Origin: Mastigias papua
Taxonomy: Eukaryota > Cnidaria > Scyphozoa > Rhizostomeae > Mastigiidae
DNA length: 64,000 bases
Assembly: GCA_964019165.1 (NCBI GenBank)
Contig: OZ025272.1
Coordinates: 1,198,128-1,262,127 of the forward strand
Direction of reading: 5' to 3'
Part shown: positions 1-64,000 of the stretch, piece after piece
Position numbering within the stretch: position 1 is the first letter of the stretch
Layout of the letters: each line of letters opens with the position of its first letter
The notes under the pieces: model-generated
The model's input: the letters and a program-made list of their open reading frames with translations, nothing else
Databases searched by the model: none
Told to the model about the DNA's origin: nothing
Made by a program: the position numbers and the translations under genes

Positions 1-989
1 ATCGATTCACAACCTCAATTTCAAGTGGATGAAAAACGGAGAGGAAATATTCAATTCAACCAGCAAAACTCTGATATTTTCACGCAATAACCATACAGTA
101 AATGGATATTACAATTGTGAGATGTCCAACAAATTTGGAAAAGTGCTATCTGCAACTACCAAAGTTGAATATCAGGAGATACCTCGTATAACAAAGCACC
201 CACAAGGTCAAGCTACAACCTTGCGAGCACCAAATGCAACAATAGTGTTGACCTGCAATGCCACTGGAGCACCAAGTCCATCTATAGCATGGCATTTTAC
301 TCCATTCAACAGCTCTAGGGAAACTACGTTAAAGGGAAATGAGACAATGCTGAAAGTTAATGCAACAAGTGTAGAACAATCAGGTTGGTATCGATGCAGT
401 GCATCAAACAACCAGGGTAAAGTGACTAGTCAAGGTGCTCGAGTTCATGTAAAAGATTCGATGATAGCAACATTCTCTACTGAAGTGTCATTCATTGTTG
501 TTCTAAAGACCTCGAGCAACTACACAAATGACACTAAGACTGAAAACAACACAGCAGGGAGTACAAATGTCACTCAGAGTACCGAAATGAACCATACCCT
601 TCCAAAGCATCTGAGTGCAAATGATACGAAAGGTCTTCAGGATCTGCTTGCAAAGCACATGAACATAACAAGAAGCCGGATCAAGAAAATTGTCTATGTT
701 AGGCATACATACACCCGGGCATCAATCTCCTTCGAGATCGCAATGCAAAACATGGATCCTATACTGGAAAAGTACAATGATTGGACAAAGATGTCTGAGG
801 ACATGGTCATGGCACGGAAAGGACTGCTTGTCTTACCAGTATGGTTGTACACATTGTACAATAATATTTCATCATCATTTAACATTGGAAATTTGGAAAC
901 AAATGTCCTACCAGAAACAATGGAGTCAACAATGAATGAGGCCTCGTGTCCAGTAAGATTTTCGTTGAAGTCTAATGGCTTTATATGCG
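1..989 (+). CDS. Gene A exon: Ig pair and conserved membrane-proximal region (partial)
   Basis: The open frame runs from the window edge (codons in phase with position 2) to a donor at 990 (TGC G|gtgagt). The first Ig-like domain shows F-K-W-M and Y-Y-N-C. The second has the full Cys-Trp-Cys pattern (L-T-C, W-H-F, W-Y-R-C). A region with many N-x-S/T sequons follows, then a roughly 150-residue conserved segment ending in a Cys-containing stretch. It aligns codon for codon with 33194-34182 of gene B. Confidence 0.9.
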
Positions 990-62700: not shown

Positions 62701-64000
62701 ACTATTTTGGTGTAGACTTTTGTCTCCGTATTACGAAGTGATGCATGCCTTATTGTTAACATGTTTGGCGGAATACAATTCAACTCCTACATAAAGTTCT
62801 GCCCAGTCGCTCCATTATGCCATGCTGGCCTTTTCTGTCAACCATCCAATTATATTCACGAAAGTTTCATACTGAAAGCTTGATTGACACTAGTGCTCTA
62901 GTTGGAGGGAGTACTGGTTGATTTTGAACCTTTGGCATTATCCAATGACAATGAATTACAACTAGTGCTCAATTCTGAAGTCCTGTCGCCTATCGAGCTT
63001 GACAAGTTCAAAAACAAATGGAATGCGACAGTACGTCCGGTCTAACAATCTACCTTCATCTCAATATCGGTGGACAAGTTTTAATCATGACTTCAGTGAA
63101 TCATTTGAGTCAAAATGCTGCGGAGAACACCAAGAGAAAGCTGAAGAAGTAGCAGGAAAGCCTCCGTTTGCATACGAAGCAGATCTCCAAGTTCATAAAT
63201 TCCAAACTAATGAACAGTAAGACAAGCAATCAGCTAGGTAAAAGCTATCATATCGCTTCGCTGAGAAATTCTAATATGTAAAGTGCGGGGTTATCTTGCG
63301 TGATGAGTTCAGGCCTGTGGTTACAGTAAAGAGTCCCAGTTTCTATTTTGTCGAAGCCATGCTTCCCCCACCTCCGTTGCTCACTCGCTGGATCCGCTAC
63401 TGTCTGCGATCGCAGTTTAGAGTTTAGAACAAATTTCAGGCGATTTTAGAGCCAAAGTCGTATCCAAAAGCAATTACAGATCTGAATGGACAGGTTGTTG
63501 CTTTAAAAATATTAAATATATGAAACTATACATGAAGCCTATTTATTTTATTTCATGATAGCATGCAAGCTTGCAAAAATTGGAATCCTTTGCTTCACAA
63601 GTCATTTTATGCAGAATTATTAAGCTTTTGACCTCGCTGAACAACTTTTTGACCACACCCTCCTCTAGACAGAAGATAGACTCCGAATTTTTCCATGGTC
63701 ACCCTGCACTCCCATGTGCTGTCAAACGAAAGAATTAGCTCTTTCAGAATTATCAACTCTTATGAACTCTTATGCATTGAGCACATTGGATACACAGGCC
63801 TCTTGCTTTGTTAAGGTATATATATATATATATATAATAAGCTTGCACACAGTGAATACCTGTCTAACCGCAACAATTGCCTTCTAGATATCAATGAATG
63901 CACAATTTCAAGCCAACTGTGTGAATGTTTTGACCCACCAAACAACCCAACATGCACTGCAACGTGCCAAAACACAGTAGGAAGTTACCGGTGCACATGT
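50711..64000 (+). CDS. Gene C (5' part): third EMI/EGF receptor paralogue
   Basis: Exons 50711-50790 (signal peptide), 59108-59239 and 59453-59556 (EMI), 59927-60028 (EGF1), 62219-62338 (EGF2) and 63888 onward (EGF3, cut by the window edge). Phases and exon lengths equal those of gene B, except three extra bases in exon 1. No stop or frameshift is seen. The gene continues to the right, so the state of its tail is unknown. Intron 1 is 8.3 kb against 1.5 kb in gene B, owing to nested transposons. Confidence 0.85.
50791..52825. other. Gene C intron 1, left part
   Basis: Homologous to gene B 12472-13560 up to about 51790, without the (TA)n. Beyond that, no counterpart is recognised in gene B. 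Confidence 0.5.
53349..54532 (+). pseudogene. MADF/SANT-like DNA-binding ORF of the Harbinger element, split by a MITE
   Basis: ATG at 53349 opens a basic N-terminus. The frame is cut at 53400 by a 771-bp MITE and resumes after 54173. Removing the MITE and one TA copy leaves exactly 137 codons including stop, in frame. The C-terminal part has W-K-N-G-E-V-N-H-L-I-E-M-L, L-W-D and R-D-K-A-L...I, the pattern of MADF or Myb/SANT-like domains. PIF/Harbinger elements usually encode such a protein beside the transposase. Confidence 0.75.
53399..54173. mobile_element. 771-bp MITE with TA target duplication
   Basis: Element 53401-54171 with inverted repeats of about 50 bp beginning GAGAGTTTCCGAAACACTAC and flanking TA on both sides. 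The interior has no clear coding potential. TA duplication points to a Tc1/mariner-like mobiliser. Confidence 0.82.
54730..54814. repeat. Foldback with 34-bp arms
   Basis: Arms 54730-54763 and 54781-54814 (AAAAGTGAAAGTGCGAGAAA and its complement) surround a loop containing GGATTCGAAATC. The loop and left arm on the minus strand resemble a tRNA T-arm/B-box, but no full tRNA is present. Confidence 0.7.
55395..55676 (-). pseudogene. PIF/Harbinger DDE transposase, N-terminal fragment
   Basis: The minus frame reads L-L-N-L-L-E-D, R-N-W-I-R-G, G-L-F-S-N-H-V-R-E-L, D-D-T-A-A-Y-K-E-M-M-R-M and I-F-R-T-L-G-R-E-I, the N-terminal region of Harbinger transposases. It runs on to R-L-T-F-T-L-R-L. The DDE catalytic core is not found, so the element cannot be autonomous. 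Confidence 0.72.
55758..56675. mobile_element. 914-bp element with near-perfect ~60-bp inverted repeats
   Basis: 55760-56673. Left end GGGTAAATTTATACGATGAG and right end its complement, extending to AATTGGTTCA. TA on both sides. Inside, an ATG frame at about 56066-56242 is acidic (S-D-E-E-S-E-K-E) and ends in TAG. Non-autonomous. Confidence 0.82.
56988..59107. other. Gene C intron 1, right part
   Basis: 56988-57920 repeats CAACATTTG-type motifs like the Harbinger termini, possibly a further decayed element. A 12-bp minisatellite sits at 57929-58027. From about 58465 the sequence is homologous to gene B 13575-14008. Confidence 0.45.
57929..58027. repeat. 12-bp minisatellite (TTCGCAGACATC)n
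   Basis: Eight near-perfect units. Because 12 is a multiple of three, open frames exist on both strands, but no coding context is seen. Confidence 0.92.
59108..59239 (+). CDS. Gene C exon 2: EMI domain, first half
   Basis: 132 nt, phase 2-2. [18 protein letters not shown] and T-C-T-R-Y-R. Cysteines and aromatic core match gene B, while 14 of 44 residues differ. Confidence 0.88.
59453..59556 (+). CDS. Gene C exon 3: EMI domain, second half
   Basis: 104 nt, phase 2 to 1, ending Y-R-C-C-T-G-W-Y-Q...C. Five residues differ from gene B. Confidence 0.88.
59927..60028 (+). CDS. Gene C exon 4: EGF1
   Basis: 102 nt, phase 1-1, six cysteines at the gene B spacing, five of 34 residues different. Confidence 0.87.
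60759..61312. mobile_element. MITE, PIF/Harbinger-like, present only in gene C
   Basis: Imperfect inverted repeats GATCCTGTTTACACGGGAGC and the complement of CTCCCGCATAAACAGGGTC, with repeated GGTTCCA motifs inside. The homologous gene B intron (about 16262) has the uninterrupted target GATTTAATAAC. Flanks ATA and TTA fit a mutated 3-bp TWA duplication. Confidence 0.75.
61589..61990 (-). mobile_element. LINE C-terminal relic, orthologous insertion to 16535-16964
   Basis: The minus frame includes G-H-E-A-K-I-L-T-E-R, A-Q-G-W-N-Q-L and L-G-T-F-N-K-K-L-D-N-Y. It shares position and decay with the gene B copy. Confidence 0.72.
62219..62338 (+). CDS. Gene C exon 5: EGF2 (EGF_CA)
   Basis: 120 nt, phase 1-1. 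The encoded protein is identical to gene B EGF2, with three silent differences only. Confidence 0.9.
63821..63837. repeat. Short (TA)n
   Basis: About 17 bp of TA, 50 bp upstream of the EGF3 exon of gene C. Confidence 0.9.
63888..64000 (+). CDS. Gene C exon 6: EGF3, 8-cysteine type (cut by window edge)
   Basis: D-I-N-E-C start, extra C-E-C pair, P-P-N-N-P and G-S-Y-R-C-T-C at the window end. Paralogue of gene B 18939-19091. Confidence 0.87.

Follow-up and report, generated by a model that had tools for sequence, protein, structure and literature searches.

A tandem array of giant receptor-like genes

The stretch of DNA analysed here, referred to as the window, comprises 64,000 nucleotides from the scyphozoan Mastigias papua (C8:1198128-1262127, on a 17.6-Mb contig of a genome of 346.8 Mb in 172 contigs) and has a GC content of 34-40%. 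It carries part of a clustered family of giant receptor-like genes, the real novelty of which is a new module, the core, encoded in the largest exon. Comparison of the window with itself showed three copies on the same strand, namely A (the 3' end of a copy, 1-6511), B (complete) and C (the 5' start of a copy, 50711-64000), together with one relic, as a sequence-only reading of this DNA had described. That reading had also proposed a search for further copies on either side; this was run on 200 kb of flanking DNA, partly masked, and found copies 0 and D. The tandem array therefore holds five copies in the order 0, A, B, C, D, all on the plus strand, and extends from approximately C8:1125800 to C8:1320200 (about 194 kb), with the window cutting through it. 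Beyond the array, 62 kb on its right side and 7.7 kb on its left showed no sixth copy. The aligned exons of all five copies are without stop codons outside the tail region. Proteins P0001, P0002 and P0003 were matched by identity to B, A and copy 0, respectively, and P0018 and P0019 are probably copies C and D. The clustering of giant receptor-like genes is thus confirmed, and the description of their products as single-pass receptor-like proteins is supported.

Gene B can be joined from 19 exons to give 2,592 residues and a stop; every intron has AG/GT borders and the phases agree (the exons are mostly phase 1-1), and our splice-site and phase analysis arrived at the same figures that had been proposed earlier. 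Two proteins from the Joint Genome Institute (JGI), P0005 (2,444 aa) and P0006 (2,081 aa), are encoded without introns on JGI contigs (the longest of each 8.5 and 7.2 kb) and are colinear with gene B. P0005 covers 13 of the 19 exons, from the first EGF_CA to GCC2, and P0006 runs from the last EGF to GCC2, coverage that stops short of the signal-peptide, EMI, first EGF, transmembrane and tail exons. The EMI and first EGF of B are supported by a protein from Rhopilema (P0034, see below), and its signal-peptide exon by copies A and C. Because their introns are missing we infer that the JGI contigs are transcripts and, provided that they are, the possibility that the exons belong to several separate genes is excluded for genes of the P0005/P0006 type. 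The features of gene B are as follows.

12395-12471, plus strand: start codon and signal-peptide exon; the same exon lies in C at 50711 and was also found for A
14009-14454, plus strand: EMI in two exons (14009-14140, 14351-14454); Pfam EMI, 26.3 bits when given alone
14810-14911, plus strand: first EGF-like exon; Pfam search, Rhopilema protein and exon join
17179-22888, plus strand: seven EGF_CA exons (17179-17298, 18939-19091, 19513-19635, 21253-21375, 21879-22001, 22269-22412, 22766-22888); Pfam, colinear with P0005
23569-24097, plus strand: two sushi exons (23569-23742, 23909-24097); Pfam, the second slightly below the cut-off
26584-27881, plus strand: exon with one EGF, then about 400 residues behind it without a Pfam match or assigned domain; 50-51% identity to P0005/P0006
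29496-29634, plus strand: small linking exon, phase 0 to 1, revealed by P0005/P0006; splice sites fit the join
29950-34182, plus strand: big exon, 1,410 complete codons; open frame, Pfam and join
33102-33656, plus strand: two Ig domains (span approximate); Pfam Ig_3 61 bits, I-set 52.9 bits
35685-35849, plus strand: GCC2/GCC3 exon; Pfam 36.9 bits
38759-38923, plus strand: stalk and transmembrane exon; exon analysis and join
39950-40041, plus strand: tail exon, with TAG directly before a DNPIY motif; exon analysis

The architecture that had been proposed for all copies (EMI, EGFs, sushi pair, middle, Ig pair, GCC2, transmembrane segment) is borne out by Pfam together with the exon join. EGF_CA, Ig and Ephrin_rec_like (GCC2/GCC3) are strong Pfam matches, and the first sushi domain passes the cut-off, with the second just under it (19.2-19.3 against 20.7). 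The EMI of B, which follows the signal peptide, scored 26.3 bits against a cut-off of 25 when analysed alone, and was not among the matches when a 603-residue piece was the query. The ectodomain of B has seven EGF_CA/cEGF repeats in addition to sushi, Ig, GCC2 and core; a PEAR1-like EGF match in B remained under the cut-off (16.2-22.5 bits against 37.5). The big exon encodes, in order, an N part, the core module, a helical region, the Ig pair and a C-terminal region.

The core module and its relatives

A protein search gave 16 strong relatives, B itself among them, and a profile search together with a dense search using the P0005 core added P0018-P0021 and P0032-P0036, bringing the family to 25 members. 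Since these searches, in a database that includes named NCBI and UniRef proteins, rely on shared 5-residue words and score lists of capped length, diverged relatives may be missed. P0017 and P0022-P0031 (6-16% of the query at 23-28% identity, with Ig families in them) were taken, unaligned, as Ig matches and left out. P0036 came from NCBI and P0032 in part from a different source. P0034 is the uncharacterized protein LOC135690976 of Rhopilema esculentum (class Scyphozoa), so that every comparison with Rhopilema concerns one uncharacterised gene model; it points to a cnidarian, probably medusozoan, host for the window. P0014 and P0020 are 82-96% identical in 50-residue windows over residues 101-350 (P0001 numbering) and 13-68% identical thereafter, a sharp recombination or assembly breakpoint. 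Judged from listings, nothing in the literature was recognised as describing this receptor family, which does not prove its absence from print.

The core is the most conserved part of these proteins, with identity to B down to 32%, and in B is organised as follows.

30909-32531, plus strand: core module; AlphaFold2 model, conservation in 25 of 25 sequences
30954-31256, plus strand: helix
31257-31454, plus strand: N arm, seven cysteines
31455-31745, plus strand: tip loop
31494-31505, plus strand: RRKR of the tip, a predicted furin-type site; every one of the 25 tips contains R-x-[KR]-R
31746-31967, plus strand: C arm, seven cysteines
about 31938-32246, plus strand: helix
32259-32447, plus strand: three strands and a helix
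32463-32474, plus strand: RKRR, second of the two basic sites, located after the core; 22 of 25 sequences have R-x-[KR]-R here

None of the 25 sequences lacks any of the 14 arm cysteines, and none has a gap in either arm. The family can be defined by this module, since 14 invariant cysteines, gap-free arms and a basic site in the tip were found in every member. At the second basic site two sequences have a looser basic run and one has none. The middle of the protein had been called unassigned, and it remains so by Pfam, which gave no family for the core or for the 763 residues preceding it; matches to the core were limited to weak coiled-coil or glycine-zipper rows (among the best 25 of 56 and the best 25 of 27 matches).

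An AlphaFold2 model built from the 25 sequences (predicted local distance difference test, pLDDT, 65; predicted template modelling score, pTM, 0.39) has the order of a helix of about 100 residues, a 44-residue strand, a poorly predicted tip, a 45-residue strand, another helix of similar length to the first, and lastly three strands with a helix. When the cysteines are paired from the tip outward the seven nested sums span 8; in a post hoc test 218 of 20,000 random placements did as well, and the long strands of the model lie in this nested register. The pairing fits an antiparallel ladder of seven predicted bonds. The tip has a GxxxGxxxG pattern in 20 of the 25 sequences. A furin-primed spike that inserts into membranes, on the principle of a class I fusion protein or a helical pore former, would have such a glycine zipper freed at the tip of the helices, for cell fusion or for attack on foreign membranes; we regard this as very unlikely.

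Juxtamembrane exons, tails and divergence between copies

Copies A and C and the relic contribute the remaining exons in the window.

1-989, plus strand: 3' part of the big exon of A, from within the first Ig domain to its end; the remainder lies left of the window, where the reading stays open (P0002)
1699-1863, plus strand: GCC2/GCC3 (Ephrin_rec_like) exon of A; Pfam 40.3 bits, splice sites
2698-4376, plus strand: three juxtamembrane EGF exons of A (2698-2850, 3686-3808, 4254-4376), in frame, phase 1-1
4967-5164, plus strand: Thr/Pro stalk and transmembrane exon of A; splice sites
6327-6511, plus strand: cytoplasmic tail exon of A with FENPIY and FENPGY
43792-46586, plus strand: relic, with fragments of EGF6, EGF7 and both sushi exons containing stop codons; comparison with the copies
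50711-50790, plus strand: signal-peptide exon of C
59108-64000, plus strand: C from EMI (59108-59239, 59453-59556) through EGF (59927-60028) to EGF_CA (62219-62338, and 63888 onward, where the window end cuts the exon)

The introns of B contain a minus-strand retroelement piece at 37193-37675 (Pfam RVT_1, E 1.6e-16), a plus-strand piece at 28959-29432 that looks reverse-transcriptase-like by eye and has no Pfam match, and, at 20237-20680 on the plus strand, an open frame of 148 residues without a Pfam match, beside long ACAT and TA repeats. A 12-bp minisatellite lies at 57928-58030, where a minus-strand open frame would encode repeated MSAK.

The EGF exons behind GCC2 in copy A have normal splice sites, and A reads in frame with or without them. 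Their earlier handling is corrected here, as they form a regular juxtamembrane block that is present in four of the five copies: A, C and D have the same three kinds, copy 0 (C8:1150424-1161100) has 11 EGFs and B has none. The 11 exons of copy 0 alternate between EGF2-like and EGF1-like and represent an amplified exon pair. By eye, P0005, P0006 and the Rhopilema protein have no EGF block behind the GCC2 position.

The tail is the least stable part of the copies. An NPxY tail had been put forward as a feature of the family; FxNPxY is intact in A, but was found in this one copy of the five. In B a TAG stop stands just before VDNPIY. The best candidate reads FYNQMY in D and FDNLAY in copy 0, where a clean splice acceptor is lacking. 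In C (C8:1287615-1289480) the transmembrane exon meets a stop codon where it ends, and two tail-like candidates lacking NPxY follow it. Among the relatives, the Rhopilema protein has SFGNPMY, and P0006 has a transmembrane segment and no NPxY. The motif looks old, though it is intact in one of five copies.

Another reading is that the proteins are structural or adhesive. Among matrix proteins, EMI domains and arrays of EGF_CA are typical, and the family could be a long cell-to-matrix anchor built of EMI multimers, calcium-binding EGF rods, Ig domains and a stalk, in which the basic sites would be maturation sites. Purifying selection on the big exon (below) agrees with such a role, as does the failure to find NPxY in four copies, which would mean that signalling is not essential. 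However, conservation is highest in a loop framed by cysteines that carries a furin-type motif and a hydrophobic segment, which would be unusual for a plain anchor, and both A and Rhopilema have an NPxY tail. We consider the matrix role doubtful, although a single-copy orthologue serving in the matrix may exist, a single protein of the family being known from Rhopilema.

The ratio of nonsynonymous to synonymous substitution rates (dN/dS) was compared between copies. The big exon has a median dN/dS of 0.31 overall and of 0.08-0.38 across ten segments, with no pair above 1 (10 pairs each), and is under purifying selection in all ten. The EMI and EGF exons of B and C also have a dN/dS well below 1. 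Identity between the copies is patchy along the protein, and median dS differs four-fold between segments, being lowest in the Ig pair (0.15) and highest in the N part (0.61), a pattern expected from gene conversion. For the GCC2 exon dN/dS is 0.47-0.85 in the four pairs that include B and 0.28-0.49 in the other six, and the A/B value is 1.03 when other borders are used. B, which has also lost the EGF block and the tail motif, looks relaxed near the membrane.

The tree of big-exon proteins (25 sequences) places four of the array contig's five in one clade; the fifth, P0003, pairs with P0004 next to that clade. Both contig 932 proteins pair together, whereas those of contigs 1362 and 405 pair with each other's and with JGI proteins instead of within their contig, which places some of the duplications further back in time.

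A family of allorecognition or pathogen-recognition receptors diversifying by duplication and gene conversion would account for the five tandem copies, the array clade, the patchwork identity and four-fold range of dS, the EGF block that is absent in B and expanded in copy 0, and the raised dN/dS of the GCC2 exon in B pairs and of two 50-codon windows in the A/B Ig pair (0.81 and 0.86). The age of part of the duplication, the low dN/dS of every big-exon segment and an Ig pair with the second-lowest median dN (0.049) point the other way. Such constraint on the big exon speaks against a self/non-self system that evolves fast. The diverging recognition system suggested earlier has weak support, from identity that is patchy between copies, and we judge this explanation unlikely.

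A proposed function and comparison with known systems

Our tentative proposal, which we hold as possible and prefer to the alternatives, is that these genes encode giant single-pass cell-surface glycoproteins that act as furin-primed scavenger or engulfment-type receptors with a new core module. Furin-type proteases, as predicted from the motifs, would cut in the tip loop and, in most copies, again behind the core. Disulphides linking one cysteine arm to the other would keep the chains on either side of the tip together, and the cut would free a hydrophobic segment, rich in glycine, that tops a long stalk. It may stick to hydrophobic targets such as damaged membranes or non-native protein, as the furin-made tails of clusterin do, while the EMI, EGF, sushi and Ig domains would multimerise and bind ligands. 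In copy A the FxNPxY tail could internalise cargo by recruiting PTB adaptors, as is proposed for the NPxY of MEGF10, Draper and CED-1 (PMC8092387); copies lacking NPxY would be anchored or shed binders. The intron-less colinear homologues, the exact join, the five copies, the conserved core with its tip motif and nested cysteine spacing, the clusterin chains that head the Foldseek list without significance, the published action of clusterin's tails (below) and the NPxY of A and Rhopilema all favour the scavenger proposal.

Several points weigh against it. The tail exons of 0, C and D are candidates only, leaving four of five copies in which NPxY was not found, and by eye no transmembrane segment was seen in the predicted protein of P0005. 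B, P0003, P0004, P0011 and P0015 have an interrupted glycine pattern. Model confidence is modest, with the tip mostly below a pLDDT of 50. Compared with equal runs from the same proteins, the stretch that follows the last basic site does not stand out in amphipathicity: the 90th percentile is reached or exceeded in 6 of 25, with a median percentile of 77. A figure of 16 of 25 was set aside, having compared a best-of-12 with single windows. Finally, sequence gives no support to homology with clusterin.

Should the furin-primed tip grip membranes or unfolded protein, this would be a cnidarian scavenging receptor of new design, in an array that holds copies with and without an NPxY tail side by side. 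The core is in any case a strongly conserved extracellular module whose named carrier, the Rhopilema protein, is uncharacterised, and the middle region is the part most worth further work. A more specific form, in which a membrane-anchored, clusterin-like spike has a stalk laddered by disulphides, bears at its tip a chaperone or a grip for membranes, and passes debris to an NPxY endocytic tail, with tail-less sister copies binding without uptake, we think quite improbable.

Vertebrate clusterin (apolipoprotein J) resembles the core in layout: a helix and a first cysteine arm lead to a hydrophobic middle, which furin cuts in clusterin and is predicted to cut in the core, and a second cysteine arm, a helix and a three-stranded sheet with a helix follow. 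Its inter-chain disulphides are antiparallel, an arrangement that in the core is predicted from cysteine spacing only, and its furin-generated hydrophobic tails mediate client binding and uptake (PMC12527946). It differs in being soluble, of about 450 residues, with five disulphides and tails that are not conserved in sequence, whereas the core has seven predicted bonds and a conserved tip inside a membrane protein of 2.6k residues. The disulphide region is also helical in clusterin and a beta ribbon in the core model. Foldseek against the PDB gave clusterin chains as the top three matches, without significance, and in VIA-align clusterin came fourth and fifth, with coiled-coil proteins ahead of it and without rising above the noise; with the first model no clusterin was among the best 50 structural matches listed. 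Profile searches of Pfam and the PDB gave no clusterin (for Pfam, among the best 25 of 27 matches, with nine cores and E up to 10), and hhalign of the core with clusterin gave P of 0.14-0.16. Shuffled clusterins scored as high in 29 of 1,000 cases (802 listed) and rotated ones in 12 of 200, the best shuffle reaching 8.5 against 0.3 bits. Among the papers found to mention both clusterin and cnidaria, none had a title on this subject. True, very diverged homology, by which a clusterin-type chaperone would predate vertebrates and the origin of the extracellular chaperone would be far earlier than them, is in our view highly improbable.

CED-1, Draper and MEGF10, to which the family had been likened, share with it the EMI head, EGFs, one transmembrane segment and, for copy A, the NPxY tail. 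This likeness is superficial: those receptors have NIM-type EGFs, whereas here the EGFs are mostly of the calcium-binding EGF_CA type, outside the NIM/atypical class, and are combined with sushi, Ig, GCC2 and core, and no ITAM (immunoreceptor tyrosine-based activation motif) was seen by eye in the tail of A. The grounds for an engulfment role, like those for a self/non-self role, are weak. Tandem Ig-containing transmembrane proteins are also encoded by cnidarian allorecognition genes such as Hydractinia Alr, but their domains are unlike those described here, where the big exon has no dN/dS above 1.

Among named proteins the closest comparison is with Rhopilema P0034. Its N-terminus differs in having two TSP1-like repeats before EMI (residues 34-145, below the Pfam cut-off), which tblastn did not find in the window, and it has a Thr-rich stalk with no Ig pair or GCC2 listed. 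It shares with the Mastigias genes the EMI, EGF array, sushi, EGF and following region, the core module, a transmembrane-like segment and an NPxY tail.

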